Below, piece after piece: positions 1,016 to 20,339 of a stretch of 64,000 nt of DNA. The DNA is taken from positions 22,136 to 86,135 of the forward strand of contig ONIM01000011.1 of assembly GCA_900317885.1 (NCBI GenBank). The letters run 5' to 3'. Source of the stretch: an uncultured Bacteroidales bacterium (GTDB lineage Bacteria > Bacteroidota > Bacteroidia > Bacteroidales > Paludibacteraceae). Both the position numbers and the translations under genes were made by a program. The notes under the pieces are model-generated. The model was not told where the DNA came from, did not search any database, and saw only the letters and a list, made by a program, of their open reading frames with translations. Numbering within the stretch: position 1 is the stretch's first letter; each line of letters starts with the position of its first letter.

Positions 1016-1045
1016 CTTTGAGCGGCTTTGCCGCGGTCTTTCTAC
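1016..1045 (-). repeat. Family A phrase repeat, copy 1 (gldG/LysM spacer)
   Basis: A 30-bp phrase beginning CTTTGAGCGGCTTTGCCGC on the plus strand, with the perfect inverted repeat GCGGC-TTT-GCCGC at 1022-1034. It is followed by further CTTTCGACTTTCTACT units to about 1068, which run into the 3' end of gldG. Confidence 0.85.
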
Positions 1046-1055
1046 TTTCGACTTT

Positions 1056-2750
1056 CTACTGTCTTTCGTATTTTCTCTTTCGTATCACAAATACTATGCC
1101 ACCTATAAGTGCCAGGATGGCTATCGGGCTGATCGTGCTGACCAGCTGTACTTGCATCCTTTTCTCGTGTGCGCGTTTGTCGTTGAGCAACCGCAATGCC
1201 ACACTCTTCTCCCGCAATGCAATCAGTCCGTCTCCGTCGGTGAGCCAGAGCACAGCGTTTGTTGCGAAATCGCGGTTACTGAACTGCATGCCGCTGTAGC
1301 GGTCGTAGCCCATGGGCAGAGCCTGGTTCTTCATCGTCTCGTTGATCAGTACGCTTCCGCTACCGATGACCACTTGCCGGGTCTTTGCGCTGCTCTTTTT
1401 GATCGGCTCGTCCGTCTCGATGCCCTCCGGCGCCATCCGGTGCGCAAAAGCGCTGGGGAAGGAACCTTCCAGCGACACCGCTACCGGCACGTACTGGTAC
1501 GCAAAGGTGCTCATGTCGGGGTTCAGATCGTTCAGGTCCACTTCTCCCGGTGTTGCCGTCACGCGGCTGGCAGTCGAAGTAGCCAGCAGGACACGTTTCT
1601 CAATCCCGTCTTCGCCGCCCACAGCATCTATCGGGCTGACAAACGTGCTCATCACTTGGCCTAAGTCCTTCGTGATCGGCGAACCTTGGCTGGTGAGCAG
1701 CAGCGGCGCGTAGGTCCAAGGCATCGGTTGCAGGTTCGGTTGTTCCGGGTCGCTGCTGACGTTCACCGGAATCGGCAGGCATTGGATGTCTTGTACCAAC
1801 GCGGGGTTGACGCGTACGCCGTAACGGAAGAGCATGTCTGTGAGTCCTAAATCCAAAGGCAGGATAGGGGTGAATCCTTCGCGTTGCAGCACTTCTTCGC
1901 TCAGCTTCACGCCGTTAAGCGACCATAAGACCGCTCCGCCGCGCATGATATACTGGTCGATGACGAAGCGCTCCTGCTCGCTGAAGGCGGTCTGCGGATT
2001 CAGAACAATGATAGCCTTGTATCCGTCTAAGATGTGGACGTTAATCGGTCTTTGAGCGACTTCGTCGCGGTCTTTTGTCTTTGAGCGAAGCGGTCTTTCG
2101 ACTATACTGCCTCTGTCCACCTGGAAATACTTGCTTAGGGCACTCATTAGGTCGTACGTGTGCGCTTCGTCGGGTTCGCCGTGTCCTTCGAGGATCGCTA
2201 CGCGCGGTGTCTCGGTTTGCTGCAAGAGATGCAAGGCTTCCATGAAGGCGAACTCCAACTGCTCAATGCTGGCATTCAGGTTCTCTTCTCCGCTGAGTCC
2301 GCGGGTGTTTTTTAAGAGTGTAACAACTGCGTGCCGCCCGTTGTAGTCGATGATTGCGTAGGGCCAGACGGTTGTTTGTGCGGTCTTGCCGTTCTGCTCC
2401 CGCTCGTGAATGACGATCGGCCGCAGGCCTAAGGAATCCATCCTGCCGTCATGGAGCAGCTCCGTTGCGCTCGCTTCGTCCTTCAGCCGTATATCCGCAT
2501 AGACGTCCAGCTCCTCCAGGGTCTCTTCGGTTGCTTTCTTGAGCCGCCGGAAACCCGCATTGAGATCTCCGCCCAAGAGCAGCGTAACCTCAGCTGTGTT
2601 GTCGAGGGTTGAAAGCATCTTCTTGCTTGATTCACTCAAGCTATAGTGCTTGTCGTCCGTCAGATCCCAGCGAACCGGTCGGAGCTCCAATGCTCCGATC
2701 AGCAGTAGCCACAGGCCGCAGAGAAATATGTAATAGCTGTACTTACGCAA
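1056..2750 (-). CDS. gldG: GldG-like ABC transporter auxiliary protein
   Basis: The 564-residue product matches GldG, the gliding-motility-associated ABC transporter component. In flavobacteria it works with GldF and GldA; in non-gliding Bacteroidales its role is unclear. An N-terminal membrane anchor (about residues 7-24, LCGLWLLLIGALELRP) is followed by the family motif VRWDLTDDKHYSLSESSKK, a large extracytoplasmic domain, and a C-terminal membrane helix (about 535-555, ISPIAILALIGGIVFVI) ending in basic residues. No gldF or gldA is adjacent. Residues about 214-236 contain the repeat-derived stretch SKTKDRDEVAQRP, read in frame from a family A phrase. The gene starts 31 bp after the foldase stop, so both are probably cotranscribed. 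Confidence 0.85.
   Translation of the reverse strand: MRKYSYYIFLCGLWLLLIGALELRPVRWDLTDDKHYSLSESSKKMLSTLDNTAEVTLLLGGDLNAGFRRLKKATEETLEELDVYADIRLKDEASATELLHDGRMDSLGLRPIVIHEREQNGKTAQTTVWPYAIIDYNGRHAVVTLLKNTRGLSGEENLNASIEQLEFAFMEALHLLQQTETPRVAILEGHGEPDEAHTYDLMSALSKYFQVDRGSIVERPLRSKTKDRDEVAQRPINVHILDGYKAIIVLNPQTAFSEQERFVIDQYIMRGGAVLWSLNGVKLSEEVLQREGFTPILPLDLGLTDMLFRYGVRVNPALVQDIQCLPIPVNVSSDPEQPNLQPMPWTYAPLLLTSQGSPITKDLGQVMSTFVSPIDAVGGEDGIEKRVLLATSTASRVTATPGEVDLNDLNPDMSTFAYQYVPVAVSLEGSFPSAFAHRMAPEGIETDEPIKKSSAKTRQVVIGSGSVLINETMKNQALPMGYDRYSGMQFSNRDFATNAVLWLTDGDGLIALREKSVALRLLNDKRAHEKRMQVQLVSTISPIAILALIGGIVFVIRKRKYERQ
2050..2103 (-). repeat. Family A phrase repeat, copy 2, inside gldG
   Basis: The plus strand reads CTTTGAGCGACTTCGTCGCG followed by a shortened second unit, TTTGAGCGAAGCGGTCTTTC. 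The inverted repeat is GCGAC-TTC-GTCGC at 2056-2068: both stem arms differ from copy 1 but still pair. In gldG it encodes KDRDEVAQ in frame. Confidence 0.85.
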
Positions 2751-2781
2751 ATCTTAAAAATAGTACATTTTTGAAGCGATC

Positions 2782-4539
2782 TTATTTCTTGATCTTCTGC
2801 CAAACGTCCTCGTTGATGACTACGGGATATTTCTCGCGCAGTTTCTTAACCCATGCAGCCTCCAAGAAGTCCTGGTAGTCGGTGGTCACTTTGCCTTTTT
2901 CGTCGCTCCAGGTCTCGGGTGCTTTGAGTTTCTTACCGACGCATTCTACCACCGGCAGGTCTTCTTTCGGCGTGAAGGCAGCTTTCTTGTTCTTGAATCC
3001 GAACTTGTCGATAGCGCCGTTCTTTCCGGCTTCCCACAGGCCGTGTTGCACCTTGACGTAGGTCACGCTGTCGCAGTTGACGCGGCGTGCGATATAGCTC
3101 TGGATGGAGTCTGCTTCAGCACTTTTGACGATGGCTTTTGCAGCTTTTGCGCTGGATTTGTCTTTCGCCTGAATGAGGTAGCCTTTCCAGCGCGGAGCAG
3201 CCCAGGTGTATTCTTTCTTATGTGCTTTGAAGTATGCTTCGAGTCCTGCGGTGTCTTTGGCGGCTTTGTCCCATACCTCACGCAGGGAGACCTCGAAGAG
3301 GAGGATTCCGTCGTGGTATTCCTGTACCAGATGGCGCAACTCCGGATATTTCTCCTCCAGATGCGCGTCGGCGTAAGCCTTCACTTCCGCGTCGCTCATC
3401 TCTGCCGGCAGGTGATACTCAGCGCGTGTCTTACGAGCAAAACTCTTCTCTGCCTCCAGCGCACGCTCATCACGCATCACTTGGCGTTGTACCTGAGCGC
3501 GGATACTGTCTAAGGGTTGAATACCGCGCTCGTCCTCCTTATAGAGAATATGCCATCCGTATTGGGTACGAACCGGAGCACTGATCTCGCCGGGCTTCAT
3601 GCTGAAAGCTGCGTCCTCGAACTCTTTGACCATCATTCCCTTACCGAACCAACCTAATTCTCCGCCGCGAGCACTGCTGCCGCGGTCGTCCGACTCGGTT
3701 TTCGCTACTTCTGCGAAGTTCTCCGGGCTGACGATAGCACGAATGCTATCTATCTGTGCTTTCTTTGCAGCAGACAAACTGTCTTCCGGAACCATTTTCA
3801 TGATATGGCTGGCCTTGACCTCAATGTGGTCACGCTCCTCTTCCACCTTCACGATATGCCATCCGTATTGGGTGCGGAACGGCTTGCTGATGCTGCCGAC
3901 CGGCGTGTTATATACGGCTTCCTCCAGCGGATAGACATATCGGAACGGCGTGATCCATCCCAGCTCGCCGCCTGTCTGCGCAACGTTCGGGTCGGTGCTC
4001 ATGTCGCGTGCAACGAACTCAAACGAGTCGGGTTTGCGCACTTTCTTCTTCTTGCCTCCGCGCACAGAGACCTCTTTGCCGACGGTGACGCGCATGTAAG
4101 CCTGGTTGATTTTCTCCCACGCTTCATCCTGAGCTGCGCTATCTGCGGACATCGGGCATTGGATGGCGATATGCGCCGCACGGCGGTCCTTCGCCAAGTG
4201 CTGATAACTCATCTCAATCAGGCTATCCATCGCCGCTTCGTCCTGCAGGTACTTAGGCGTAGCTTGTGCGCGATAGCCCTTCAGCTCTTTCTTGAAAGCC
4301 TCCGTGGTGTCAATACCTTGCGCCTCGGCTTCCGCTACTTTGAGTTTGAAATTGATGAACATGTCCAGGTACTCGTCCATGGTCTTGGGATCCACGGCTC
4401 CGGCCTGGTTGTTCTTCTCGTAGATGTAGAGGAACTCCTCTGCGCTTACGTCTTTGCCATTGATACTCATCAGCGGTTTCTCTGCCCATAAATTCAGGCT
4501 CATTGCCGCTGCGGCTACAAATAAAATTGTCTTTTTCAT
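2782..4539 (-). CDS. SurA-like periplasmic foldase with two PpiC domains
   Basis: The 585-residue secreted protein has a signal peptide (MKKTILFVAAAAMSLNLWA), a SurA-type N-terminal helical region and two parvulin (PpiC) rotamase domains at about residues 119-233 and 240-345. The paired motifs GGELGWITPF/GGELGWFGKG and RTQYGWHIVKVEEE/RTQYGWHILYKEDE mark the two domains. The C-terminal 240 residues are a helical extension rich in lysine. The expected role is prolyl isomerisation and chaperoning of outer-membrane proteins in the periplasm. The ATG overlaps the nrnA stop by 4 bp, which indicates translational coupling. Confidence 0.88.
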   Translation of the reverse strand: MKKTILFVAAAAMSLNLWAEKPLMSINGKDVSAEEFLYIYEKNNQAGAVDPKTMDEYLDMFINFKLKVAEAEAQGIDTTEAFKKELKGYRAQATPKYLQDEAAMDSLIEMSYQHLAKDRRAAHIAIQCPMSADSAAQDEAWEKINQAYMRVTVGKEVSVRGGKKKKVRKPDSFEFVARDMSTDPNVAQTGGELGWITPFRYVYPLEEAVYNTPVGSISKPFRTQYGWHIVKVEEERDHIEVKASHIMKMVPEDSLSAAKKAQIDSIRAIVSPENFAEVAKTESDDRGSSARGGELGWFGKGMMVKEFEDAAFSMKPGEISAPVRTQYGWHILYKEDERGIQPLDSIRAQVQRQVMRDERALEAEKSFARKTRAEYHLPAEMSDAEVKAYADAHLEEKYPELRHLVQEYHDGILLFEVSLREVWDKAAKDTAGLEAYFKAHKKEYTWAAPRWKGYLIQAKDKSSAKAAKAIVKSAEADSIQSYIARRVNCDSVTYVKVQHGLWEAGKNGAIDKFGFKNKKAAFTPKEDLPVVECVGKKLKAPETWSDEKGKVTTDYQDFLEAAWVKKLREKYPVVINEDVWQKIKK

Positions 4540-5597
4540 TGTTTCAAATAGTTCTTATAGGTGTTTTCAAATAATTTTACTGCTTGTTCGAGGCTTCCGA
4601 AGAGTTCTCCTCCGGAGGCGTTCATGTGTCCTCCTCCGTGGAATACTTCGCTTGCCCAGATGTTTACGGGTCTGTCTCCTTGCGAGCGGAAGGAGATACG
4701 TATCCGGGGTTTGGGAGTGCCGGGTTTGGGCCGTTCCTCCCGCATGAAGACGGAGTAGAAGACATCTCCGATCTGCAGCGGCATGTTCACCAGCCCTTCG
4801 CAATCGCCCTGCTTGTAGTGGTATTGCTCCAGCTCCGATGCCGTCAGTGTGATGAGCGCCAGATGGTACTCCGGGAAGATGCGCATCTTGCGGTAGAGCG
4901 CATAACCCGTCAGCCTCATCCGGTCCGTGGAGTACTGGTTAAACACGCGGTCGTAGATCTCGTCTTTTTTTGCGCCCGCGCGTAAAAGAGAAGCAACAAT
5001 CTCGTATATCTCCGGGTTGTTGGAGTTATAACTGAAATTGCCTGTATCCGTCATCAGACCTGTATAAATACAGGTAGCTATCTCCTCTGTCATGCAGCCT
5101 ATCAACCGATACACGATCTCGCACGCGGAACTCGCCTCCGGGTGCGAATGTATCTCCGCCCATATACTATCCTCTTTCGACTTTTGACTTTGAGCGACTT
5201 CGTCGCGGTCTTTCGACTTTTGACTTTCGACTAATATATGATGGTCAATGAGGATCTTCTCGCAGGGGTTCGCAATCATCTTCTCTCCCATCGGTCCGAT
5301 ACGTTTCGGGTCATTGAAGTCCGTGCAGATAAACAGATCCGCTTGCTCGATTAGGGCATCGCATTCGCGGCTTTTTTGCTCGTATATCCGAATCTCTTCT
5401 GCTCCGGGCATCCATCCCAAGAACGCCGGAAACGCATTCGGCACAATCACCGTCACGCTTTCGTCTTTCGACTTTCGACTTTCGACTTTTGACTTGCACC
5501 AATGCCACATTGCGAGAGCCGATCCCATGGCGTCTCCATCGGGCGCCATGTGGGTAAAAATAACGATATGTTGTGCTCTTTCTATTTGCTCTTTCAT
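4536..5597 (-). CDS. nrnA: DHH-family phosphoesterase (NrnA-like oligoribonuclease/pAp phosphatase)
   Basis: The 353-residue cytosolic enzyme has the DHH-family motifs: HMAPDGDAMGSALA (residues 16-29), FICTDFND (about 89-96), IDHH (117-120) and the DHHA1-domain GGGHMNASGG near residue 321. NrnA enzymes degrade nanoRNA and dephosphorylate 3'-phosphoadenosine 5'-phosphate. Three low-complexity insertions set this copy apart: SKVESRKSKDE (about 36-46), ESQKSKDRDEVAQSQKSKED just after the catalytic IDHH (about 124-143), and RPKPGTPKPR in the DHHA1 part. All coincide with phrase repeats and keep frame. It is the first gene of a minus-strand operon with a clear promoter at 5619-5650. Confidence 0.87.
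   Translation of the reverse strand: MKEQIERAQHIVIFTHMAPDGDAMGSALAMWHWCKSKVESRKSKDESVTVIVPNAFPAFLGWMPGAEEIRIYEQKSRECDALIEQADLFICTDFNDPKRIGPMGEKMIANPCEKILIDHHILVESQKSKDRDEVAQSQKSKEDSIWAEIHSHPEASSACEIVYRLIGCMTEEIATCIYTGLMTDTGNFSYNSNNPEIYEIVASLLRAGAKKDEIYDRVFNQYSTDRMRLTGYALYRKMRIFPEYHLALITLTASELEQYHYKQGDCEGLVNMPLQIGDVFYSVFMREERPKPGTPKPRIRISFRSQGDRPVNIWASEVFHGGGHMNASGGELFGSLEQAVKLFENTYKNYLKQ
4705..4733 (-). repeat. Phrase repeat inside nrnA (GGGTTTGGGAGTGCC type)
   Basis: The plus strand shows two near copies of CGGGGTTTGGG and CCGGGTTTGGG separated by AGTGC. It is translated in nrnA as RPKPGTPKPR, an insertion ahead of the conserved strand IRISFRS. Confidence 0.5.
5188..5230 (-). repeat. Family A phrase repeat, copy 3, inside nrnA
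   Basis: CTTTGAGCGACTTCGTCGCG with the inverted repeat GCGAC-TTC-GTCGC at 5194-5206, flanked on both sides by CTTTCGACTTTTGACTT units. It is translated as KSKDRDEVAQSQKSK, the same reading phase as copy 2 in gldG. Confidence 0.85.
5461..5493 (-). repeat. GTCGAAA-type tandem phrase inside nrnA
   Basis: Four near-tandem CTTTCGA/CTTTTGA units on the plus strand (the family A flank without the hairpin), translated as SKVESRKSKDE between two conserved NrnA segments. Confidence 0.75.
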
Positions 5598-5618
5598 ACT
5601 ACGTCACGAAAAATCGCG

Positions 5619-5650
5619 CAAAGATACTAAAAAAAATTGATATATCCAAA
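5619..5650 (-). promoter_or_regulatory. Promoter of the nrnA operon
   Basis: On the minus strand TTTG (5650-5647), 20 bp, then TATCTTTG (5626-5619), matching the Bacteroides -33/-7 pattern. The -7 box lies about 22 bp upstream of the nrnA ATG. It is back-to-back with the walJ promoter. Confidence 0.85.
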
Positions 5651-5674
5651 TAATTCGAAAAAAATGAGCAAATG

Positions 5675-5706
5675 TTTGCATATATGCAATTTTTGTTGTA
5701 CCTTTG
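5675..5706 (+). promoter_or_regulatory. Promoter of the walJ-argS unit
   Basis: TTTG (5675-5678), 20 bp, then TACCTTTG (5699-5706). The -33 box continues as TTTGCATATATGC. Only 24 bp separates it from the -33 box of the divergent nrnA promoter. Confidence 0.88.
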
Positions 5707-5723
5707 CAGGCTGAATTGGTAAT

Positions 5724-6557
5724 ATGGAGGAAAACGGACTTATATTCAGATGTTTTGCGAGCGGAAGTAGCGGTAACTGCTACTATCTCGGTACGCGTCA
5801 ACGGGGAGTTCTCATTGACGCGGGCATCTCTGCGCGTCAGATACAGAAGTGTCTGCGCGAGATGGGTCTGGATTTTCCGAATATCATGGGCGTACTTGTG
5901 ACGCACGATCATGCGGATCATATTCGTGCGGTAGGAACCTTGGGCGAGCGGGTACATCTGCCTATCTACACGACCGCGGAGATTCATGAAGGAATCGACC
6001 GCAACTACGGCGTGCGCGAGAAGCTGCGTACCAGCCGGCGCTATTTCGAGATAGAGAAAGAGTGGGAGCTCTTTGATTTCAAGATCAACACCTTCCATAT
6101 TGAGCACGACTCGACGGATTGCTTGGGGTATTGTATTGATTATCAAGACCAGCGCTTTGTGCTGATGACCGATTGCGGTTCGATCAACGACCGGATGGAG
6201 GAGTACATCCGTACGGCGAACCACCTGGTGATTGAGGCGAACCACGACGAACACATGTTGCTCAACGGTCCTTATCCGACGTATCTGAAGCAGCGTATTC
6301 TCTCTCCCCGCGGCCATCAGAGCAACGATGTATGCGGCGAACTGTTGGAGCGTAACTGGCATCCCGATTTGCGAAACGTGTGGTTATGCCACCTCTCGCT
6401 GGAGAACAACGATCCGCAGGTGGCTTACGATACAGTAGCTTCGTATCTGGAGGAGATAGAGATACTTCCCGGGCAGGACATTTTCCTCAAGGCGCTGGAG
6501 CGTACTGCGCCCAGCCCGGTCTATGAGCTTAATAATAAGATGATTACTGAATACTGA
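5724..6557 (+). CDS. MBL-fold metallohydrolase, WalJ/YycJ-like
   Basis: The 277-residue product starts MEENGLIFRCFASGSSGNCY, typical of the WalJ/YycJ branch of the metallo-beta-lactamase fold. The metal-binding motif THDHADH lies at residues 60-66, with further ligands expected at MTDCG and NHDEHML. These proteins are predicted nucleases or exonucleases linked in Firmicutes to cell-wall and replication coordination; the substrate here is unproven. Translation starts 18 bp after the -7 box. The last residues (MITEY) fall in a short ACTGAATACTGAAAACTGAA phrase. A glycosyltransferase follows after 15 bp. Confidence 0.85.
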   Translation: MEENGLIFRCFASGSSGNCYYLGTRQRGVLIDAGISARQIQKCLREMGLDFPNIMGVLVTHDHADHIRAVGTLGERVHLPIYTTAEIHEGIDRNYGVREKLRTSRRYFEIEKEWELFDFKINTFHIEHDSTDCLGYCIDYQDQRFVLMTDCGSINDRMEEYIRTANHLVIEANHDEHMLLNGPYPTYLKQRILSPRGHQSNDVCGELLERNWHPDLRNVWLCHLSLENNDPQVAYDTVASYLEEIEILPGQDIFLKALERTAPSPVYELNNKMITEY

Positions 6558-6570
6558 AAACTGAATACTC
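6540..6570 (+). repeat. ACTGAATACTGAAAACTGAA-type phrase at the walJ stop
   Basis: Three imperfect tandem ACTGAA(T)A units spanning the end of walJ and its spacer to the next gene. The final walJ codons are built from this phrase. Confidence 0.55.
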
Positions 6571-6572
6571 CT

Positions 6573-7313
6573 ATGATAGAACGATTAGTTATTATTCCGA
6601 CTTACAACGAGAAAGAGAACATCGAAGCCATCATCACCGCTGTGATGGAGTTGCCTATGGGATTTCACGTCTTGATTATCGACGATGGTTCGCCGGACGG
6701 CACCGCTGAGATTGTCAAGAAGATGATGAAGGGCAAATACAAAGGATGTATCGACCTCATCGAGCGCGAGGGTAAACTGGGCTTGGGTACCGCGTATATC
6801 ACCGGCTTCCAATGGGCCATCGAACATAAAGCCAATTATATCTTCGAGATGGACGCGGACTTTAGCCATAATCCTCAGGATCTGCTCAAACTCTATGACG
6901 CTTGTGCCGTACGCGGCGCCGACCTCGCTATCGGTAGTCGCTATGTAACCGGCGTCAATGTGGTGAACTGGCCTATGGGGCGCGTTCTGATGTCTTATTT
7001 CGCATCCAAATATGTGCGGTTCGTCCTCGGCGTGGATATTCATGATACGACCGCCGGCTTCGTTTGCTACCGCCGTAAGACGCTGGAAACAATCGAGTTG
7101 GATAAGATTCGTTTCAAAGGCTACGCCTTCCAGATCGAGATGAAGTTCACCGCTTCCAAATGCGGCGCAAAGATCATCGAGGTGCCGATCATCTTCGTCA
7201 ACCGGGTACTCGGTACTTCCAAGATGAGCGGAGGTATCTTCTCCGAAGCACTACTCGGCGTCATCAAACTTAAGATAAGCAGTTGGTTCAGAAAATATCC
7301 CCAAATTGTATGA
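6573..7313 (+). CDS. Polyprenol-phosphate mannosyltransferase-like glycosyltransferase (GT2)
   Basis: The 246-residue family 2 glycosyltransferase resembles dolichol/polyprenol monophosphate mannose synthase. Visible motifs are IPTYNEKENI (8-17), the nucleotide-binding DDGSPDGT (37-44), the DxD-type EMDADFSHNP (about 90-99) and SRYVTGVNVVNWP. It has no C-terminal membrane domain, so it is the short DPM1-like type, expected to transfer a sugar from a nucleotide donor to a polyprenyl phosphate at the cytoplasmic face. Its stop overlaps the argS ATG (ATGA), pointing to coupled translation. Confidence 0.85.
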   Translation: MIERLVIIPTYNEKENIEAIITAVMELPMGFHVLIIDDGSPDGTAEIVKKMMKGKYKGCIDLIEREGKLGLGTAYITGFQWAIEHKANYIFEMDADFSHNPQDLLKLYDACAVRGADLAIGSRYVTGVNVVNWPMGRVLMSYFASKYVRFVLGVDIHDTTAGFVCYRRKTLETIELDKIRFKGYAFQIEMKFTASKCGAKIIEVPIIFVNRVLGTSKMSGGIFSEALLGVIKLKISSWFRKYPQIV

Positions 7314-9151: not shown

Positions 9152-9155
9152 GGAA

Positions 9156-11003: not shown

Positions 11004-12371
11004 TTATCGGATCATCGTGTCGCCGAAGTAAGGCTGTAAAGCCGCAGGGATGCGGATACCTTCCTCCGTCTGGTTATTCTCCAGAAGCGCAGCGACGATG
11101 CGCGGGAGAGCGAGCGCCGAACCGTTCAGCGTGTGGCAGAGCGTCACTTTCTTATCCTCCGCACGGCGGTAACGGCATTTCAGCCGGTTCGCCTGGTAGG
11201 TGTCGAAATTAGACGTACTGGACACTTCCAGCCAGCGGTGCTGGGCTTCGCTATATACTTCAAAATCATAACATAGAGCCGCCGTGAAACTCATATCTCC
11301 GCCGCTTAGACGAAGGATACGATACGGTAACTCGAGCTTCTGCAAGAGACCTTCTACGTGCGCGAGCATCTCCTTATGACTCGCGTCCGAGTGCTCGGGC
11401 GTGTCTATACGCACGATCTCGATCTTCGAGAACTCATGGAGTCGGTTCAGACCCCGTACGTCCTTGCCGTAACTGCCTGCCTCGCGACGGAAACACTCCG
11501 TGTAAGCGCAGTTCTTGATTGGCAACTTGTCCTCGTCGATGATCACGTCGCGGTAGAGGTTCGTCACCGGTACCTCGGCGGTCGGAATGAGATACAGGTC
11601 ATCTACCTCGCAGTGGTACATCTGTCCCTCTTTGTCGGGCAGCTGACCGGTGCCGTAACCCGAAGCGGCATTGACCACCGTCGGCGGCATGATCTCTGTA
11701 TAGCCGGCTTTGTTCGCTTCGGCGAGGAAGAAATTGATGAGCGCGCGTTGCAAACGGGCACCCTGACCGATATATACCGGGAATCCAGCACCGGAGATCT
11801 TCACGCCTAAGTCGAAGTCAATGAGGTTGTATTTCTTCGCGAGCTCCCAGTGAGGCAACTTCTCGCTCTGGGCGATGCGCTCAGCGGCGATAGCCTCATC
11901 TACCTCGCTGTTCCAGTCCTTCAGCGCTACAGCGCCGTCCTTGCTAATCGCGTCGATCATCGGCTGGTTAGGCCAGTTGCCGATACGCACGGCGAGGTTG
12001 TCCTCGGCACTTGCGCCTTCCGGCACGATGTCGTACGGTACGTTCGGGATGGTCAGCAGCAACTTGGTCTGCGCCTCCTCTGCCTCCGCCATCTTCGCGT
12101 CGTACTCGGCGATCTGCGCTTTGAGGGATCCCGTCTGCGCTTTCGCTTCCTCTGCCTCTCCGCGTTTGCCTTGCGCCATCAGCGCACCGATGGACTTCGA
12201 GATCTTATTCATCTCTGCTGCAGCCGCATCTTTCTGCTGCTGAGCAGCCTTGCGTTCTCCATCCAGACGAAGCACCTCGTCTATCGCCTCTGCGGCTCCA
12301 GCGAAGTGCTTCTTTTCCAAACCGGCTACGATACGAGCTTTGTCATCGTAGATTTGTTTGAGTGTTAGCAT
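11004..12371 (-). CDS. serS: Seryl-tRNA synthetase
   Basis: A class II synthetase of 455 residues (usual length about 425), charging tRNA-Ser and tRNA-Sec-type acceptors. The N-terminal coiled-coil arm (about residues 25-110, rich in alanine, glutamate and lysine) binds the tRNA and is slightly long here. Class II motifs are visible: VVNAASGYGTGQLP, LIPTAEVPVTNLY, FRREAGSYGKDVRGLNRLHEF (motif 2) and NGSALALPRIVAALLENNQ (motif 3). It sits downstream of rpmA, separated by a 58-bp spacer that holds a family A phrase. Confidence 0.95.
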   Translation of the reverse strand: MLTLKQIYDDKARIVAGLEKKHFAGAAEAIDEVLRLDGERKAAQQQKDAAAAEMNKISKSIGALMAQGKRGEAEEAKAQTGSLKAQIAEYDAKMAEAEEAQTKLLLTIPNVPYDIVPEGASAEDNLAVRIGNWPNQPMIDAISKDGAVALKDWNSEVDEAIAAERIAQSEKLPHWELAKKYNLIDFDLGVKISGAGFPVYIGQGARLQRALINFFLAEANKAGYTEIMPPTVVNAASGYGTGQLPDKEGQMYHCEVDDLYLIPTAEVPVTNLYRDVIIDEDKLPIKNCAYTECFRREAGSYGKDVRGLNRLHEFSKIEIVRIDTPEHSDASHKEMLAHVEGLLQKLELPYRILRLSGGDMSFTAALCYDFEVYSEAQHRWLEVSSTSNFDTYQANRLKCRYRRAEDKKVTLCHTLNGSALALPRIVAALLENNQTEEGIRIPAALQPYFGDTMIR

Positions 12372-12388
12372 AGTCTTTCAACTTTTGT

Positions 12389-12418
12389 CTTTGAGCGGCT
12401 TTGCCGCGGTCTTTCGAC
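12389..12418 (-). repeat. Family A phrase repeat, copy 4 (rpmA/serS spacer)
   Basis: A 30-bp unit with the inverted repeat GCGGC-TTT-GCCGC at 12395-12407, identical over its full length to copy 5 upstream of rplU. Partial units (TTTCAACTTTTG, TTTCGACTTTCTTC) flank it. Confidence 0.88.
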
Positions 12419-12429
12419 TTTCTTCTTTT

Positions 12430-12687
12430 TTACTCTACCGGTTGAATGGATACGTACGATTTGTTGTCGCGTTTCTTGCGGAAGGTTACGATACCGTCGC
12501 AAAGTGCGAACAACGTGTGGTCGCTTCCCATACCCATGTTTTCACCCGGGTTGTGAACCGTACCACGTTGACGTACGATGATGTTACCTGCCTTTGCGAA
12601 TTGACCACCAAAGATCTTCACGCCAAGACGTTTGCTTTCTGATTCACGGCCGTTCTTAGAACTACCGACACCTTTCTTGAATAACAA
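12430..12687 (-). CDS. rpmA: 50S ribosomal protein L27 with an unusual start
   Basis: From its fourth residue this 85-residue protein is a standard L27 ([20 protein letters not shown] onwards), part of the peptidyl-transferase region of the 50S subunit. The N-terminus is odd: instead of the usual ATG with MAHKKG, the only start in frame is a TTG giving MLFKKG, with a stop codon four codons upstream of it. That TTG lies 26 bp inside the end of rplU. Either the genes overlap with a non-ATG start, or a small deletion (real or from assembly) has removed the original L21 stop and L27 ATG. Confidence 0.85.
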
Positions 12688-12994: not shown

Positions 12995-13025
12995 CTGTAC
13001 TTTATTAGTATTTGGGGGATTTCGT

Positions 13026-13055
13026 CTTTGAGCGGCTTTGCCGCGGTCTTTCGAC
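13026..13055 (-). repeat. Family A phrase repeat, copy 5 (rplU leader)
   Basis: A 30-bp unit identical to copy 4, with the inverted repeat GCGGC-TTT-GCCGC at 13032-13044, lying in the transcribed leader of rplU about 30 bp upstream of its ATG. Confidence 0.88.
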
Positions 13056-13173
13056 TTTCGACTAATTCCCTTGTTACGGCGGTGCGGCGATAACCTTTTC
13101 CTGTGCGCTGCTGTCGTACGACTCATACGCTGCGGTGGTTATACTTAATCTGGCCTTTCCGCAAAATAGCCCG

Positions 13174-13774: not shown

Positions 13775-13798
13775 ACCCAAACAGCCGCTAATTTTCAG

Positions 13799-14073: not shown

Positions 14074-14084
14074 TAAAAAACGTC

Positions 14085-14216: not shown

Positions 14217-14304
14217 TATCAGCCTCCATTTACGGCTCAAAACCGCGATATGACCGCGACGTGACCGCGACCTCTACGTACTGTTACACGAAAATAAAAA
14301 AGAT

Positions 14305-14412: not shown

Positions 14413-14432
14413 TGATGCGTTTGGAATAGTTA

Positions 14433-15641
14433 TCAGTACAAGAAACCAAACAGGTAAAGCGGAATGCTGTTACCTGTCCCATACTCTATCCCGTCTAAAG
14501 CCAGATAACTATTCGGTATATCTTTAATCTGTTGGAATGTTTTTCCAGCTCCTCCTACTTCAAACGTATAATGCTTATCCACGATGTAATCACCTTTGGG
14601 TGGAAGCAGAACTTGGTGTGTTTTACGAACTTGGTTGACGAAGAAAGTCTCACGCAAGGTCCCTTCATTCACAAAACCGGTTAATGAGTACATCTGGTTG
14701 GTGTTATTCAGATAAATCTTGTCCGGTCTGGAAAGAGTTTTGTAACTGTTACTCTCTTTATTAACAAGCATCAATAGACCTGCTTTTTCCATCGTATAGA
14801 GCAGACGAATGACGATGTCTCGTGTCGCTCCTATTTCCCGGCATAGCGTACTGATATTTGGCTCCAAAGGTACTTGTGTTGCTAAAATCATCATCAGTTT
14901 CTGGGCTTTCTGAAGAGTCTGTAGCGAAATATCTTCTACTTTCGGAATTTCCTGATAGATGATGAGCAGCATCAGTTGTTCTAATCGCCGTAAGTAATCT
15001 TGTTGGGCTTCTAAAACAAACGGGTAATAGCCTTGACGTAAGTATTCGTCAAAGAGCATCAACGGTTTGATCTTTGAACTGATGTGCATGGCTAACGAAG
15101 TGTGATTAGCAAGCAAGTACTCCAGACTTATAGCTTCTTGATGCAGATAGCCCATGAAGAGCAGATATTCACGGAATGAGAACCCTTGCAACTCATAGAC
15201 TGTTTGGCGACGGGATAGATCCGCCTGAGCTTCGTCTATCTGCAACATGGATGAGCCCGTATATACGATCTTCAGTTCGCCAAAGGAGTCAAAGATGTTT
15301 TTCAGTTGTTGCCCCCAATGTTGAGAGTAATGGACTTCATCAACGAAAAGGGCTTCAATGCCGTGGGTGTAGGCATATTCTGCTACTTCAAATAAACTCA
15401 TCAATTGAAAATGGAAACTATCCAATGAGACATATAGTACTTTGTTCAAATCCGGATAATGCTCTTTGATGTATTGTAATAGCATAGTCGTTTTCCCTGT
15501 ACCGCGAGCACCTCGAATACCGATGAGACGCGCATCCCAATTAATTTGATGATAGAGATAACGCTTATGAGTAAGCTCAACGTGGTTCACACGCCCTAAA
15601 AACTCATTTTGTAACTGTCTAAATTGATGTTCTTGTATCAT
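14433..15641 (-). CDS. AAA-family ATPase with DUF4143-type C-terminus
   Basis: The 402-residue protein has a P-loop (GARGTGKTTMLLQYI, about residues 43-57), a Walker B-like ALFVDEVHY (about 98-106) and a sensor-like IVYTGSSML. A winged-helix segment (CREIGATRDIVIRLLYTMEKAGLL) and a nuclease-like C-terminal domain ending GNSIPLYLFGFLY follow. This is the common AAA_14/DUF4143 family of predicted ATPases, very abundant in Bacteroidales and without a settled function. It has its own promoter at 15670-15701. A relative lies at 61744-62955. Confidence 0.85.
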   Translation of the reverse strand: MIQEHQFRQLQNEFLGRVNHVELTHKRYLYHQINWDARLIGIRGARGTGKTTMLLQYIKEHYPDLNKVLYVSLDSFHFQLMSLFEVAEYAYTHGIEALFVDEVHYSQHWGQQLKNIFDSFGELKIVYTGSSMLQIDEAQADLSRRQTVYELQGFSFREYLLFMGYLHQEAISLEYLLANHTSLAMHISSKIKPLMLFDEYLRQGYYPFVLEAQQDYLRRLEQLMLLIIYQEIPKVEDISLQTLQKAQKLMMILATQVPLEPNISTLCREIGATRDIVIRLLYTMEKAGLLMLVNKESNSYKTLSRPDKIYLNNTNQMYSLTGFVNEGTLRETFFVNQVRKTHQVLLPPKGDYIVDKHYTFEVGGAGKTFQQIKDIPNSYLALDGIEYGTGNSIPLYLFGFLY

Positions 15642-15669
15642 AATATATAATCAGGGTTGAAAAACGCTG

Positions 15670-15701
15670 CAAAGGTACAACTTTTATTTTGAAAAAGCAA
15701 A
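15670..15701 (-). promoter_or_regulatory. Promoter of the first DUF4143-type ATPase
   Basis: Minus strand TTTG (15701-15698), 20 bp, TACCTTTG (15677-15670), 29 bp upstream of the ATG. Confidence 0.85.
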
Positions 15702-15814
15702 TTTTTCGAAAGATTTTTATTATGCAAAAGTGAAAATTGTGCTATTTATTACTTTTTTATACTAAAAATTATATATTTGTATATTCCCAAATCGCCATCT
15801 TGGGGTTGCATTCA

Positions 15815-15850
15815 GTAAGACTTTTGTAAGACTTTTGTAAGACTTTCAAA
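15815..15850. repeat. GTAAGACTTTT tandem phrase
   Basis: Three near-identical GTAAGACTTT(TGT) units in tandem, just downstream of the SGNH hydrolase gene. Confidence 0.7.
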
Positions 15851-15867
15851 ATCTGCTGCAAAGGTTG

Positions 15868-17766
15868 TTAACGAACCTGTGCTCCCGTAACGGAATAGGT
15901 CTTGCCGCCCCGGAGGATAAAGATCTGACCGTTGAGGAGAATCTTACGAACCGGCATCCCGGCTCCCTGAAGGGAAGAGGAGACTTCTTCGATGCCTTCC
16001 TCACCGGGCTCGAACGCCATACCCTCGATGCGGACATTACGCAGGCCGATATACTTGCTATCCTTTACCTCTCCGTAGTCATGCCAAGGGAGGATACGCA
16101 CGTGAAGGGTCTCTCCGGCAGGGATAGTGAGGGTAGGCGTGAGGTCCACGTGCTCGATGACGCGGGAAGGCATGTTGCGTTTCTCATAGATAGTTGTTAC
16201 ATCCGTGAACTCGGAGCCGAAGCCGGTATTGAGGTGGTAGCACATGGTAGAGGTACCATCGGAAGCGATCTCCATGGCAATACGGGTGATGCGTACGTCC
16301 ATCGCTGCCGGTGCAGTGACCGCGAAATCGAGGTAACGGTTGGCGTTCTCATCGATCTCTCCTGCGGGCCACGGGGTACGTGCCGAACCGTCGGCAGAGT
16401 TATGGAAACGCGCGAGGATAATACCTTGTTCATCACCATCGACGAAATAGTTTTTGGAGGCATTATAATCGATACAAGCCATCTGGCTCATGGTGAACTC
16501 GGCGCTGATGGGGCCTTCAACCACGGGGGCGGGTACGGGTTTGGCACCGATTGCCCAGAAGGCGCTGACGGTTGCTCCTCCATCGAGCGAGATGGCGTTT
16601 GCGGCTACAGGCACGGCTACTACATGTTCGCCCGAGGTAGCATAGATAGTGTCGAAATGGAAGCCTCCGGTGGTATAGTTTGCGCGGATAAAGACTTTCT
16701 GGAACATCGAGCCGCCTTCGTACGAAGCCTGTGCGGTCGAAGCGTAGTTCTCTTTGTCGAGGGAGATGAGCAGGTTAGAAGTCGCACGCAGACTAACCGT
16801 ACCTGCCGCGGGTGCGAGACCGTAACCGGTGAGGAGGAACTCTTTGTTCTGCGGCACGGAGCAATAGGTCTCGCCGATATGGATAGAAGCGGGATTGGCG
16901 GTGATGTCCGTGGGGATCTCTATATGGTCGGCGAGGATGCCTGCGTTCTTGAGGAGCTGGGCAGCAGCACGTGCCACGAGGTTACCTCCCATGGCGTTGG
17001 TGTGGGTCTTGTCGCCGGAGCAGAAGAGCAGGCTCAGACACTGGCTCTCGCCATAGGAGAGGTATAGCTGGCGGGTAGCGTCGGTGAGGTCGATGAAGGG
17101 CACGTCTTTCTCTGCCGCTACGACACGCATCGCCTCTACATAACTCATCGAGAGGTCGGTAGCCGGCACGCTTTGGTTCTGCTTGAGTTCGCCGTTCTCG
17201 ATCTTGGCGAACTTATCGCCGAGGTCGTGTTGGCCTTTGCGGGTGATGTTATTGCCGCTGAAATAAGCACGGCAGATAGGGCCCACGAGAACCGGGTTCA
17301 CGCCTAATGCGCGCGCTTCGTCGATGAAGAGGCGCAGGTAGTCGCGATAGGTCGTCTGCGGGTTGGTACCGCGTGCATCGGAAGGAGCCGGCAGGCTATG
17401 CTCGGTGCAATAGGCAGCGTACTCGAGGTTATCCAAGCCGGAGAGGTTACTGTCGTTACCTTCGTCGTTATGGGCAAACTGGATAAGCAGGTAGTCGCCT
17501 GCACTCATCTGGCTCTTCACGGAGGGCCAGTAGGCGGCGCCGTTGTAGAAACCACGGGTGTCGGCACCGGACTTACCTCGGTTGTTGACAGTGACAAAAG
17601 CGGGATCGAAGAACGAAGCGAGGTACATACCCCAACCGCGTTTGTCGGTAGTCGATTCGTCGTACTCCGCCATCGTCGAATCGCCGATGGTGTGAACTTT
17701 GATTGCGGCCTGCATCATCGGCAGGCTAAGCAGCATAGCTGCGAAGAAGGAAAAGATTTTTTTCAT
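15868..17766 (-). CDS. SGNH hydrolase, rhamnogalacturonan acetylesterase-like, with T9SS-like tag
   Basis: The 632-residue secreted protein begins with a signal peptide (MKKIFSFFAAMLLSLPMMQA). An SGNH esterase domain of the CE12 type follows: block I IGDSTMAEYD (about residues 25-34), a block III-like LIQFAHNDEG and the catalytic-dyad block DKTHTNAMGG. These enzymes remove acetyl groups from pectin rhamnogalacturonan. Residues from about 290 form one or more extra beta-rich domains of unknown role, and the protein ends with NGQIFILRGGKTYSVTGAQV plus Arg, the shared C-terminal tag. The upstream in-frame ATG at 17850 lies before the promoter, so the start at 17766 is preferred. The last 40 residues are close to those of the partial gene at the right edge. 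Confidence 0.8.
   Translation of the reverse strand: MKKIFSFFAAMLLSLPMMQAAIKVHTIGDSTMAEYDESTTDKRGWGMYLASFFDPAFVTVNNRGKSGADTRGFYNGAAYWPSVKSQMSAGDYLLIQFAHNDEGNDSNLSGLDNLEYAAYCTEHSLPAPSDARGTNPQTTYRDYLRLFIDEARALGVNPVLVGPICRAYFSGNNITRKGQHDLGDKFAKIENGELKQNQSVPATDLSMSYVEAMRVVAAEKDVPFIDLTDATRQLYLSYGESQCLSLLFCSGDKTHTNAMGGNLVARAAAQLLKNAGILADHIEIPTDITANPASIHIGETYCSVPQNKEFLLTGYGLAPAAGTVSLRATSNLLISLDKENYASTAQASYEGGSMFQKVFIRANYTTGGFHFDTIYATSGEHVVAVPVAANAISLDGGATVSAFWAIGAKPVPAPVVEGPISAEFTMSQMACIDYNASKNYFVDGDEQGIILARFHNSADGSARTPWPAGEIDENANRYLDFAVTAPAAMDVRITRIAMEIASDGTSTMCYHLNTGFGSEFTDVTTIYEKRNMPSRVIEHVDLTPTLTIPAGETLHVRILPWHDYGEVKDSKYIGLRNVRIEGMAFEPGEEGIEEVSSSLQGAGMPVRKILLNGQIFILRGGKTYSVTGAQVR
15963..15980. 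repeat. 18-bp block shared by two tagged secreted genes
   Basis: CTCCCTGAAGGGAAGAGG is identical at 15963-15980 and 63531-63548 and encodes SSSLQG ahead of the C-terminal tag in both genes. It resembles the family C G/C-block phrases. Confidence 0.75.
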
Positions 17767-17787
17767 GGTTGTTTCGAATTTCGGGTG

Positions 17788-17819
17788 CAAAGGTACGAAA
17801 AATATTTGAAATTTGAAAA
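17788..17819 (-). promoter_or_regulatory. Probable promoter of the SGNH hydrolase
   Basis: A perfect -7 box TACCTTTG (minus, 17795-17788) lies 21 bp upstream of the ATG. The -33 position shows only TTTT rather than TTTG, so the promoter may be weaker or activator-dependent. Confidence 0.65.
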
Positions 17820-17838
17820 TTGAAATTTGAAAATTGAA
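17806..17838. repeat. AAATTTGAAAATTG tandem phrase
   Basis: Four alternating AATTTGAAA and AATTGAAA units between the two divergent promoters. A related AATTCAAA run lies at 57778-57810. Confidence 0.65.
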
Positions 17839-17877
17839 CAAAATGCACACATTTTATAAAATAAATGTGCGCGTGCG

Positions 17878-17909
17878 CTTGCGTATGTCAAAAAAAAGCA
17901 GTACCTTTG
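17878..17909 (+). promoter_or_regulatory. Promoter of the ftsW-murG unit
   Basis: CTTG (17878-17881), 20 bp, TACCTTTG (17902-17909), with the -33 region continuing TTGCGTATGTC. The ATG of ftsW follows at 17946. Confidence 0.85.
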
Positions 17910-17945
17910 TGCCCAAATTGTCAAACCTCAAACCTTAATGCGATT

Positions 17946-19178
17946 ATGAAACTGAATCTACAACACATCGACCGCACGTTCTGGGGGCTCTATATCACCC
18001 TGATCGTCGTAGCTGTCATCGCCCTCTTCTCGGCGTCTTCTACCTTGGTATATATGCATCACTCCGCCTTAGGACCGATCGGGCAGCAGATGTTCTTCAT
18101 CGTGTTAGGCCTGATTGCAGCCTTCGGCATCCAGTATATCCCCACCCATTGGATTCGTCTGGGCGGGTACGTATTATTGGCGATCAGCACGCTCCTGGTT
18201 TATTCCACGATGATTCCCGGTAACCCCTTGGTCGTGACGATCAACGGCGCTGCGAGATGGGTGCGTATTGCGGGAATCACCTTCCAGCCTTCGGAGCTGG
18301 CGAAGCTGAGTCTGATCATCGTCGTGGCGGACCAGCTGGCACGTATCCGTACCGAGGAGGACAAAAAGAAATACTTCATCCGAACGCTGGTTCTCTCGGG
18401 TATTGTGATGCTGCCGATCATGGCGTCCAACCTCTCGACGGCGGTGCTGATAGGTCTGATTGTCTTCTGCCTGTGGATCTTAGCGCGGATCCCATGGAAA
18501 TATACACTGTCGATCGTCGGCATCGCCATTGTGGTGCTGGTGCTCGGCTACGCGATTGTGGAGTTCGGGTTCGTTCGGCCGGGACGGCAGATGCACGGAC
18601 CCTTCAAGCGCGCAACGACCTGGGTGTCCCGTATCGACAGGCATTTCAACGACGAGGGAGCATCCAAATACGTCCTCACGGACGAGAATATCCAGGAGGT
18701 CTATTCGTCGGTAGCTATCGCCCGCGGCGGTACCACCCCTCTCGGCGTCTTACCCGGTAACAGCAAGGAACGGGATTATCTGCCCTTGGCGTTTGCGGAT
18801 TATATCTTCGCCATCATCGTCGAGGAGTCCGGCATCATCGGTGCCGCGTTCTTAATCTTCCTGTACTTGGCAGTACTGTTCAGGGCCTGCAATGTGTCGA
18901 GCCGGTATTCCGACATACCGGCGATGCTGATGACGATGGGGCTGGCGCTGATGATCACCTGCCAGGCACTGATCTCCATGCTCGTGGCGGTAGGATTGGG
19001 ACCGGTGACGGGACAGCCCCTGCCGCTGATATCCAGGGGCGGTACATCGGTGCTGATCACCTCGATATACTTCGGCATTATGATGAGCGTGAGCCGCGAG
19101 CAACTGGCCCTCCGCGAACGCGTACAGGAGACCATCAGCGAGAGCCAGGAAGAAGTACCGATCGTGACGGTGGAATGA
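17946..19178 (+). CDS. ftsW: FtsW-like septal peptidoglycan polymerase (SEDS family)
   Basis: The 410-residue polytopic membrane protein has about ten helices and the SEDS signatures INGAARWVRIAGITFQPSEL and GQPLPLISRGGTSVLITSIYF. It also shows DYIFAIIVEESGIIGA. FtsW polymerises lipid II at the division site with its partner class b PBP. Placement directly before murG matches the division and cell-wall cluster order and favours FtsW over RodA. The ATG at 17946 follows the promoter; an upstream in-frame start would lie before the -7 box. The spacer to murG contains a TTAATGGTGAAATGATGAA phrase. Confidence 0.9.
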   Translation: MKLNLQHIDRTFWGLYITLIVVAVIALFSASSTLVYMHHSALGPIGQQMFFIVLGLIAAFGIQYIPTHWIRLGGYVLLAISTLLVYSTMIPGNPLVVTINGAARWVRIAGITFQPSELAKLSLIIVVADQLARIRTEEDKKKYFIRTLVLSGIVMLPIMASNLSTAVLIGLIVFCLWILARIPWKYTLSIVGIAIVVLVLGYAIVEFGFVRPGRQMHGPFKRATTWVSRIDRHFNDEGASKYVLTDENIQEVYSSVAIARGGTTPLGVLPGNSKERDYLPLAFADYIFAIIVEESGIIGAAFLIFLYLAVLFRACNVSSRYSDIPAMLMTMGLALMITCQALISMLVAVGLGPVTGQPLPLISRGGTSVLITSIYFGIMMSVSREQLALRERVQETISESQEEVPIVTVE

Positions 19179-19218
19179 TGAAATGGTGGATTGATTAATG
19201 GTGAAATGATGAATTGAT

Positions 19219-20301
19219 ATGCGTTACTTAATTTCCGGAGGAGGGACCGGAGGACATATATTCCCTGCCATCAGTATTGCCAATGCATTGAAAGAATTAG
19301 ACCCGGAGGCGGAGATCCTCTTCGTAGGCGCGTTAGGGCGCATGGAGATGGAGCGCGTGCCGCAAGCGGGGTACAAGATCGTCGGTCTGCCGGTACGCGG
19401 CTTCAACCGCGCACAGCCGTGGAAGAACGTGTCGGTGTTAGTGGACTTGGTCAAGTCCATCCGGCAGGTGAAGAGGATCATCCGGGATTTTCGGCCGGAT
19501 GTAGGGGTCGGCGTAGGCGGTTACGCTTCCGGTGCTGCCATGTGGGCGGCGGCGAACATGGGGATCCCTATCTTGCTGCAAGAGCAGAACGGCTTCGCCG
19601 GCGTGACGAATAAGATCCTGAAGAACAAAGCTGCGAAGATTTGTGTCGCGTACCCCGGCATGGAGCGCTTCTTCCCCGCGGAGAAGATCATCCTCACGGG
19701 TAATCCCGTTAGGCAGAATCTGACGAAAGTAGAAAGTAGAAAGTCGAAAGTAGAAAGTCGAAAGACGCTCCTTATTATCGGCGGGTCATTGGGAGCACGG
19801 ACGATCAATGAGGCGGTGAAGGCGGCGCTGCCGGAGTTAGCCAAGAGCGATATACAGGTCGTTTGGCAAACCGGAAAGGTGTATTACGAGTCCTGCAAAG
19901 CCGCATGGGAAGCAGCCGGCCAACCGGCGAACATCGAGTGTCTGGACTTCCTGAGCGACATGCCGGAGCGGTACGCACAAGCGGACCTGGTGATCTCCCG
20001 CGCAGGTGCTTCGTCCATCAGCGAGATATGCCTCTTAGGCAAACCTGCTATCTTAGTTCCCTCGCCGAACGTGGCGGAGGATCATCAGACGCATAACGCC
20101 ATGGCATTGGTGAACCGCGAAGCAGCGGTACTGGTACGCGATGCAGAGGCGGCAGAGAAACTGATTCCGACGGCCATGACACTGATTGAGGACAATGCCA
20201 AACTGGAGGTCCTGCACAAGAACGTGCTGAAACTCGCGCAGGCCGATTCCGCTACACGGATTGCGAAAGAAGTGATAGCGCTGGGAAAGAAGATTGATTA
20301 A
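19219..20301 (+). CDS. murG: MurG N-acetylglucosaminyltransferase (lipid II synthesis)
   Basis: The 360-residue GT28 enzyme transfers GlcNAc from UDP-GlcNAc to lipid I on the inner face of the cytoplasmic membrane. It shows SGGGTGGHI at residues 6-14, GVGGYASGAAMWAA, and the donor-site motifs LLIIGGSLGARTIN and SRAGASSISEICLLGKPAI. The linker joining the two Rossmann domains (about residues 171-185) is KVESRKSKVESRKT, encoded by tandem GAAAGTAGAAAGTCGAAA phrases. The flanking conserved blocks are intact, so the enzyme is probably functional. Confidence 0.95.
   Translation: MRYLISGGGTGGHIFPAISIANALKELDPEAEILFVGALGRMEMERVPQAGYKIVGLPVRGFNRAQPWKNVSVLVDLVKSIRQVKRIIRDFRPDVGVGVGGYASGAAMWAAANMGIPILLQEQNGFAGVTNKILKNKAAKICVAYPGMERFFPAEKIILTGNPVRQNLTKVESRKSKVESRKTLLIIGGSLGARTINEAVKAALPELAKSDIQVVWQTGKVYYESCKAAWEAAGQPANIECLDFLSDMPERYAQADLVISRAGASSISEICLLGKPAILVPSPNVAEDHQTHNAMALVNREAAVLVRDAEAAEKLIPTAMTLIEDNAKLEVLHKNVLKLAQADSATRIAKEVIALGKKID
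19728..19767 (+). repeat. GAAAGTAGAAAGTCGAAA tandem phrase inside murG
   Basis: Five near-tandem GAAAGTAGA/GAAAGTCGA units at the inter-domain linker of murG, the same flank phrase that accompanies family A. Confidence 0.85.
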
Positions 20302-20339
20302 TGGTGACGCGGCTGAGCCGCTTAATGGTGAAATGATAT
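20293..20339 (+). repeat. ATTAATGGTG phrase with family A-like hairpin, copy 6
   Basis: The spacer after murG reads ATTGATTAATGGTGAC, then the inverted repeat GCGGC-TGA-GCCGC at 20309-20321, then TTAATGGTGAAATGATAT. The ftsW/murG spacer at 19186-19217 carries the same ATTAATGGTGAAATGATGAA phrase without the hairpin. Confidence 0.7.

Follow-up and report, generated by a model that had tools for sequence, protein, structure and literature searches.

Hairpins and heptamers within the genes of a Paludibacteraceae genus keep shape rather than letters and suggest an undescribed kind of self-spreading DNA

Palindromic and short tandem repeats that settle within genes have been described in several systems, each resembling in part the elements analyzed here, short hairpins and tandem heptamers in a 64,000-nucleotide stretch from an uncultured Bacteroidales bacterium of the Paludibacteraceae (assembly GCA_900317885.1, contig ONIM01000011.1, positions 22,136 to 86,135; hereafter the window). 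Rickettsia palindromic elements are described as palindromic repeats whose insertions into many unrelated protein genes keep the frame (PMC10969869), a feature also found here; they are, however, about 150 bp long, fall into families and encode a conserved peptide, whereas our modules measure about 12 to 26 bp and vary in stem and linker, and because of this size, the lack of a consensus and the use of all frames we do not class them with the Rickettsia elements. Repetitive extragenic palindromic (REP) elements, which carry GTAG or CGTC tags and are linked to a REP-associated tyrosine transposase (RAYT), share with them dispersal, some intragenic copies and, in some linker families, a four-base tag beside a hairpin (PMC3733652), and as far as that account goes the CGTC type is reported in Bacteroidetes without a dedicated transposase. 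Here, in contrast, the tag is GACC or TGAC, stems have 2 to 6 bp and modules form head-to-tail arrays with heptamers mixed in; since there is neither one stem consensus nor a consistent RAYT, we do not class them as REPs. TAACTGA and similar heptamers of Beggiatoaceae, cyanobacteria and Bacteroidetes are likewise tandem and partly located in open reading frames (ORFs) (PMC4679880), but those found here are other heptamers, of many kinds, often mid-gene in conserved proteins and combined with hairpins. Nematomorph mitochondrial coding palindromes are reported as perfect inverted repeats kept in functional genes (PMC6649704), although they are much longer than our short dispersed modules and their arms encode conserved residues, and the PARCEL palindromic repeat coding elements, described as coding repeats with dyad symmetry that are thought to be mobile (PMC2996958), encode a 25-residue protein motif of a kind not seen here. 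The present elements work like a selfish small palindromic repeat, their heptamer part resembling the described bacterial heptamer arrays, and searches of open-licence PMC papers listed no published description of them.

Six copies of a 13-nt inverted repeat occupy the window at precisely the places given in the original prediction (1022-1034, 2056-2068, 5194-5206, 12395-12407, 13032-13044 and 20309-20321), and all fall into a single structural class, that of short perfect hairpins (stem 2 to 6 bp, loop 3 to 4 nt) set between short linkers and usually near heptamer arrays, which that prediction overlooked. Copies 1 to 5 do share a common unit, of about 26 to 33 bp, and copies 4 and 5 are indeed identical over more than 30 bp; on the gene strand their hairpins lie between the linkers AAAGACC and TCAAAG, amid GAAAGTC heptamers and near variants. 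Copy 6, which had been counted with the other five, has different flanks (ATGGTGAC-hairpin-TTAATGG), yet it falls in the same structural class with a linker family of its own and is not a chance look-alike. Within the source genome, a 2.1-Mb draft in 89 contigs that is 89% complete, an exact 26-mer pattern has five matches, all on this contig, and three further places match with three mismatches. At C38:182837-182862 and C79:1408-1433 of the same genome (L006 and L008), a GCGGC-TTT-GCCGC hairpin lies between ATTGAG and GCTCATT flanks, possibly another linker.

Paired change between the two arms, first claimed from these six copies, is real and general. It was examined by three pattern searches over 101 genomes of the genus, which demanded only the outer G and C and no palindrome, left the core as N5-13 and were run beside reversed-pattern controls (module totals are sums of per-genome columns, with chance matches kept in the pattern counts). 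GACCG-N5-13-CTGTAAGACCG is present in 35 of the 101 genomes (2 matches in the source genome) and ATGGTGACG-N5-13-CTTAATGG, the family of copy 6, in 34 (10 in the source genome), both with reversed controls of 0; AAGACCG-N5-13-CTCAAAG is present in 66 (26 in the source genome, and at least five in each of 24 genomes), its reversed control giving 9 matches overall, so that lone matches in a genome may be chance. Core statistics use the matches listed, namely 150 of 371 for GACCG-CTGTAAGACCG, 150 of 588 for AAGACCG-CTCAAAG and 99 of 99 for the copy 6 family, among which there are 49, 62 and 32 distinct cores, respectively. In the same order, the inner pairs of the distinct cores are Watson-Crick in 77 of 87, 142 of 170 and 88 of 93 cells, each value lying above all 1000 arm swaps (highest 0.816, 0.688 and 0.871), and, counted by copy among the matches listed, 130 of 150 in the AAGACCG-CTCAAAG set and 91 of 99 in the copy 6 family are perfect hairpins. 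Genus-wide, the arms do not vary independently, nor are the copies confined to the few of the window.

Behind the same linkers stand more than 20 different stems of 2 to 6 bp, with no single consensus, and the same stems are shared by several linkers. Successive different hairpins are separated by constant linkers in head-to-tail arrays, the tetranucleotide at the hairpin foot being GACC throughout two linker families and TGAC or AAAC in others, while an additional linker form, GTnTAAAC, carries hairpins in two species. Among 17 distinct hand-collected 5-bp modules with several linkers (7 stem sequences, one also with G-T), 85 of 85 cells pair, one G-T counted, a figure that is partly by construction because part of the rows derive from a scan requiring pairing, which leaves the three pattern searches as the fairer test; the same modules hold 18 double-change cells against 4.2 in shuffles (0 of 500), and sliding the arms leaves 20-63% pairing. 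A regex scan found pairing in 174 of the 290 cells of its 68 distinct cores, against a swap mean of 0.44 (highest 0.50), and the unpaired cells belonged mostly to cores not of the G..C form. Clusters of three 5-bp hairpins, sought de novo, numbered 10 in source-genome sequence (shuffled 4), 11 in genus loci (shuffled 2) and 16 in control loci, 11 of them runs of N (shuffled 17), a search that is not discriminating, and hairpins between repeated 8-mers numbered 11, 40 and 7 (shuffles 2 each), many of these rows being plain heptamer arrays. Chance or an assembly artifact is a practically negligible explanation: lone 2-bp hairpins are meaningless by themselves, the host genome is a fragmented draft and single AAGACCG/CTCAAAG matches in array-poor genomes are partly chance, as the 9 control matches indicate, but reversed controls at or near 0, agreement among metagenome-assembled genomes of several projects and covariation above every swap control refute it.

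The loops of the short-stem modules obey a strand-specific rule. On the GACC strand, among the matches listed, 7-nt cores with a 2-bp stem carry the loop TNC in 198 of 234 copies (62/78 for GACCG-CTGTAAGACCG, 72/88 for AAGACCG-CTCAAAG and 64/68 for the copy 6 family), and 8-nt cores carry TNNC in 26/30 and 17/18 copies of the first two families. On the opposite strand TNC and TNNC read GNA and GNNA, and a GNNA loop rule also exists for DNA. GNA loops are described as the rule of extraordinarily stable DNA mini-hairpins (PMC6479982), and d(GCGAAGC) as an extraordinarily thermostable one, with a melting temperature of 76.5 C reported for a 2-bp example (PMC10527192). Our short-stem modules follow the GNA rule of these ultra-stable hairpins and, by analogy, would share their stability; DNA fits the loops better than RNA because only 8 of 26 GNNA loops among the matches listed for GACCG-CTGTAAGACCG meet the RNA rule GNRA. 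We accordingly regard as distinctly unlikely a reading at the RNA level, in which the modules are mRNA hairpins acting on stability, translation or termination. Some copies do lie between co-directional genes or just past stop codons, and heptamer arrays (47 sense, 14 antisense) and hairpin arrays (45 and 28) show a sense bias, a crude one, as is the gene caller used for coding status and sense, which over-calls coding (93%); yet the short-stem loops obey a DNA rule on the strand opposite GACC, Rfam gave 0 matches in the window at gathering score, many copies are intragenic, and sites differ among close relatives.

Both components are dispersed genome-wide. The heptamer pattern GAAAGTMGAAAGTMGAAAG, allowing two mismatches, has 152 matches in the source genome versus 8 for its reversed control, and at one mismatch the heptamer occurs in 47 of 73 genus genomes (the source included) and in 3 of 47 genomes of other families, with 0-137 matches per genome and reversed controls in the genus that are not all zero (e.g., 48 and 8 in G033). 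A count of exact period-7 runs of at least 12 gave 29 for 406 kb of source-genome sequence and 73 for 28 named loci with an nrnA-like gene; period 6 reached 2 and 1, period 8 reached 4 and 11, and shuffled sequence 0. The density of these period-7 runs per Mb is 71 in the source genome (406 kb), 179 across 23 genus loci and 7 across 20 loci from other families, where 295 kb, part of which reads N, contained 2 runs. The titles of the 28 loci give a Bacteroidales or Paludibacteraceae bacterium, except for one Bacteroidia and one distant Eudoraea, and those that name a source give gut parts of yak, sheep, goat or pig; RUG in them presumably stands for rumen. Array units include AAAGTCG, AATTCTC, AAAGGTG and others, the TAACTGA unit being absent from a list of 105 heptamer arrays. 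The AAAGTCG heptamer of the GAAAGTC array is stop-free in all six frames, which would make survival in genes easier, and as 7 is not a multiple of 3 each frame of such an array encodes the same repeat peptide, KVESRKS. By eye and uncounted, arrays of the source genome often end in TTAGTCG or TAGTAG on the left and GAAAGAC on the right, a hint at preferred ends. Heptamer arrays of other sequence lie in the window at 6541-6569, 17804-17838, 56756-56782 and 57777-57809 (TGAATAC, ATTTGAA, GGTTACG and AAATTCA), and period 11, in modest excess over most other small periods, is represented by tandem arrays at 15815-15846 (GTAAGACTTTT), 32712-32744 and 54207-54239 (both TTGACCGTCGG).

Many of these arrays interrupt conserved protein genes in frame. 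Among 54 heptamer arrays examined in source-genome sequence, part of which was chosen for holding such arrays, there are 23 for which a same-strand frame is open over at least 80 codons before the array and at least 45 beyond it. Nineteen of the 21 array-interrupted proteins were searched together with GldG, 10 against Pfam and 10 against NCBIfam; 3 of the 10 array-carrying proteins had no NCBIfam match, in one protein (L157) the match does not cover the insert, and in the remaining searched proteins the arrays are located within or between matched domains. The interrupted proteins comprise GldG, NrnA/DHH, MurG, MutS2, UPF0004 (MiaB-type), TsaD-family, HhH-GPD/NUDIX (MutY-type) and MurF-Alr proteins, as well as an ATP-grasp ligase, an M24 peptidase, a DegT aminotransferase, a Dpp5-type peptidase, MurD, RecF, an RluA-type enzyme and a 2-oxoacid oxidoreductase. 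At L155:685-2199, a Mur ligase-alanine racemase fusion carries its heptamer insert in the Mur ligase domain. Perfect hairpins make up 78 of 85 coding modules versus 28 of 31 non-coding ones by the crude gene caller, and stems start in all three codon phases (18, 16 and 9), so that pairing is not a codon by-product. In the AlphaFold model of the NrnA-like protein of the window (mean predicted local distance difference test score 86), the first insert is placed at a helix end and residues 124-142, within the second, score below 50; about 26 residues of this protein stand in place of about 7 in its solved relative 4py9. Selection at the peptide level, favoring charged loops of the KVESRKS or DRFAV kind, would agree with inserts at a few tolerant loops and with the predicted disorder of residues 124-142, but we hold it to be very improbable, because all three codon phases are used, non-coding copies pair equally, and consecutive modules stand in different frames and encode different peptides.

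Within the window, the earlier view that the copies sit in genes holds for copies 2 and 3, which are in coding sequence, whereas copies 1, 4, 5 and 6 occupy short intergenic gaps. Copies 1 to 5 are all on the minus strand. Copy 1 (1016-1082; hairpin 1022-1034, minus strand GCGGC-AAA-GCCGC, linkers AAAGACC/TCAAAG) adjoins a GAAAGTM heptamer array at 1038-1064 in the gap directly after gldG (1056-2750, minus strand; TIGR03521 GldG, 455 bits), whose match over 5-561 spans the insert of copy 2. The latter (2048-2101; hairpin 2056-2068, minus strand GCGAC-GAA-GTCGC) is in frame within gldG, and its region holds a second module with a 2-bp stem, GCTTCGC. The gene of a DHH-family NrnA-like phosphoesterase (4536-5597, minus strand; relatives 4py9/3w5w, E 2.6e-89) contains two in-frame inserts, a GAAAGTC heptamer array of 5.4 copies at the first insertion site (5458-5495, minus strand) and copy 3 at the second (5173-5232; hairpin 5194-5206), with GAAAGTC-type heptamers on both sides. 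Copy 4 (12371-12433; hairpin 12395-12407) lies with its heptamers in the gap before ORF 11004-12371, which we take to encode seryl-tRNA synthetase, and copy 5 (13024-13070; hairpin 13032-13044), also with heptamers, in the leader of a gene presumably encoding ribosomal protein L21. On the plus strand, a GAAAGTM heptamer array (19725-19766) is in frame in murG between two glycosyltransferase domains, copy 6 (20298-20331; TTAATGGTGAC-[GCGGC-TGA-GCCGC]-TTAATGGTGA, of the other linker family) follows directly after murG, and an AGAGTCA/GAAAGTC array (23577-23634) is in frame in mutS2 between the MutS_V and Smr domains. A 60-bp tandem repeat of 3.2 copies occupies 40610-40803.

Content differs at orthologous sites. 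NrnA-like proteins are present in 94 of the 101 genus genomes, and two of their loops hold species-specific inserts, either GAAAGTC, AAAGGTG, GGGTTAC or GTACAAA-type heptamers or hairpin arrays, others being short. Six window sites were compared with up to five close relatives, where flanks were found. At NrnA site 1 the array is shared by L090 and missing from L091, L112 and L061, and L092 shows hairpins with a linker of the GTTTAAAC type; at the place of copy 4, L091 and L092 have other heptamers, and at that of copy 1, L090 has an extra module, GCCCTACGGGC, and the array is absent from L091. No clean empty site with a duplicated target was seen at the six sites, the orthologous places being shorter or bearing other repeats. 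In L103, 70 nt of NrnA site 1 are exactly repeated in frame at site 3 of the same gene. The repeated stretch reaches beyond the array and takes in at least 8 nt (GTGACGGT) which relatives have as native coding sequence, and this single case is direct evidence of copying within a gene.

The modules also reach beyond the genus. Across 395 genomes of the class (the source included), the TGTAAGACC pattern matches only in the source genome and in G250, a member of another order, and a looser pattern for GAYCGCTNYGCTGTAA modules, allowing two mismatches, gives 172 matches in G250 (L188-L191), 12 in G283 (L192, L194 and L196) and 0 in five other members of the G250/G283 family. The G250 arrays lie beside genes that by eye are unlike those of the genus, which makes contamination unlikely, and the modules of both genomes may reflect transfer, contamination or shared machinery. 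Carriage by phages was probed with two exact patterns, which had 0 matches in viral contigs.

A REP-type element dependent on a RAYT, as the original prediction proposed, finds no support: although the paired arm changes and the conservation of shape stand, there is no consistent association with Y1_Tnp (PF01797) and no single stem consensus. Matches to Y1_Tnp occur in 29 of the 101 genus genomes, many of them partial and at about 20-27 bits, and the match in the source genome is a partial one of 26 bits with one TAG inside, in a 397-aa frame. A RAYT/Y1 transposase was rejected, since it occurs in 7 of the 18 genomes that have at least five TGTAAGACC-type modules and in 22 of the remaining 83 (11 array-rich genomes, such as G002, G025, G033, G040 and G145, are without it), and so was a reverse transcriptase, RVT_1 matching in 24 genus genomes, 6 of the 18 array-rich and 18 of the 83 others, with no match in the source genome. 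Neither RAYT nor reverse transcriptase is thus required. A dedicated, unrecognized transposase or other enzyme that, much as a RAYT acts on REPs, recognizes hairpin and linker and copies the modules appears unlikely to us but remains a serious rival, given the exact recurrence of linkers, G250 included. Exact linkers are dispersed in both orientations with patchy copy number and sporadically in another order, and the combination of tag and hairpin resembles the GTAG/CGTC REPs, of which the CGTC type seems, in the account cited above (PMC3733652), to lack a dedicated transposase; the lack of a consistent link between array-rich genomes and Y1_Tnp or RVT_1, the two families searched, the several linkers and the absence of one stem consensus argue the other way.

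The explanation we favor, at about even chances, is that two kinds of unit, tandem heptamers and linker-hairpin-linker modules, make up DNA repeats of a selfish or passively spreading kind, which slippage and template switching propagate and perfect; we infer a single-stranded intermediate, template switching and selfishness from the patterns above. Hairpins would fold on single-stranded DNA during replication or repair, polymerase slippage would make the heptamers, and a template switch across the arms would alter both in one event and perfect the stem, while short common linkers would allow arrays to be copied to other sites by template switching, and purifying selection would let in-gene copies persist only in frame and in tolerant loops. 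Template switching is reported to make compensated stems in a single event (PMC8794818) and to make quasipalindromes perfect in Escherichia coli (PMC7202029), and human Pol theta, as an analog only, is described as beginning stem-loop synthesis from two terminal base pairs (PMC11292364). Several observations weigh against this explanation. Differences at orthologous sites are mostly whole-module swaps and loop changes rather than stepwise paired substitutions; longer stems, of 5 bp and more, often carry non-GNA loops (AAA, AGA, TGA and others); and GTTCAT-TTC-ATTCAC and GCTCGC-NNN-GCTCGC modules pair at just 4 of 6 positions. DNA folding parameters give equal energy for both strands, so that the case for a strand asymmetry comes from the loop rule and the literature, and stop-free heptamers are not enriched, 82 of the 105 arrays being open on one or both strands and 30 on both, where random heptamers reach 87% and 50%. 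Exact linkers at dozens of unlinked sites are more easily explained by a dedicated enzyme than by chance template switching, and the recurrence of an almost identical linker and module in G250 and G283, of another order, points to transfer or a shared enzyme.

With chances a little short of even, we would see in these elements a repeat class devoid of conserved primary sequence, in which stems, loops, linkers and heptamers differ from one species to another and also inside single genomes, while a structural rule (linker, ultra-stable DNA mini-hairpin, linker, often amid heptamers) is maintained, copied and carried through essential genes by a process reading DNA shape. They offer a natural record, bacterial and genome-wide, of concerted change in hairpin arms, and this record bears on the question of whether paired changes are proof of selection on RNA or the product of template switching on DNA, and they counsel caution, in that covariation by itself is not proof of a functional RNA. 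Finally, conserved proteins of the RecF, MutY, MurG, MurD and NrnA types tolerate inserts that differ between close species, making such repeats a source of protein loops.

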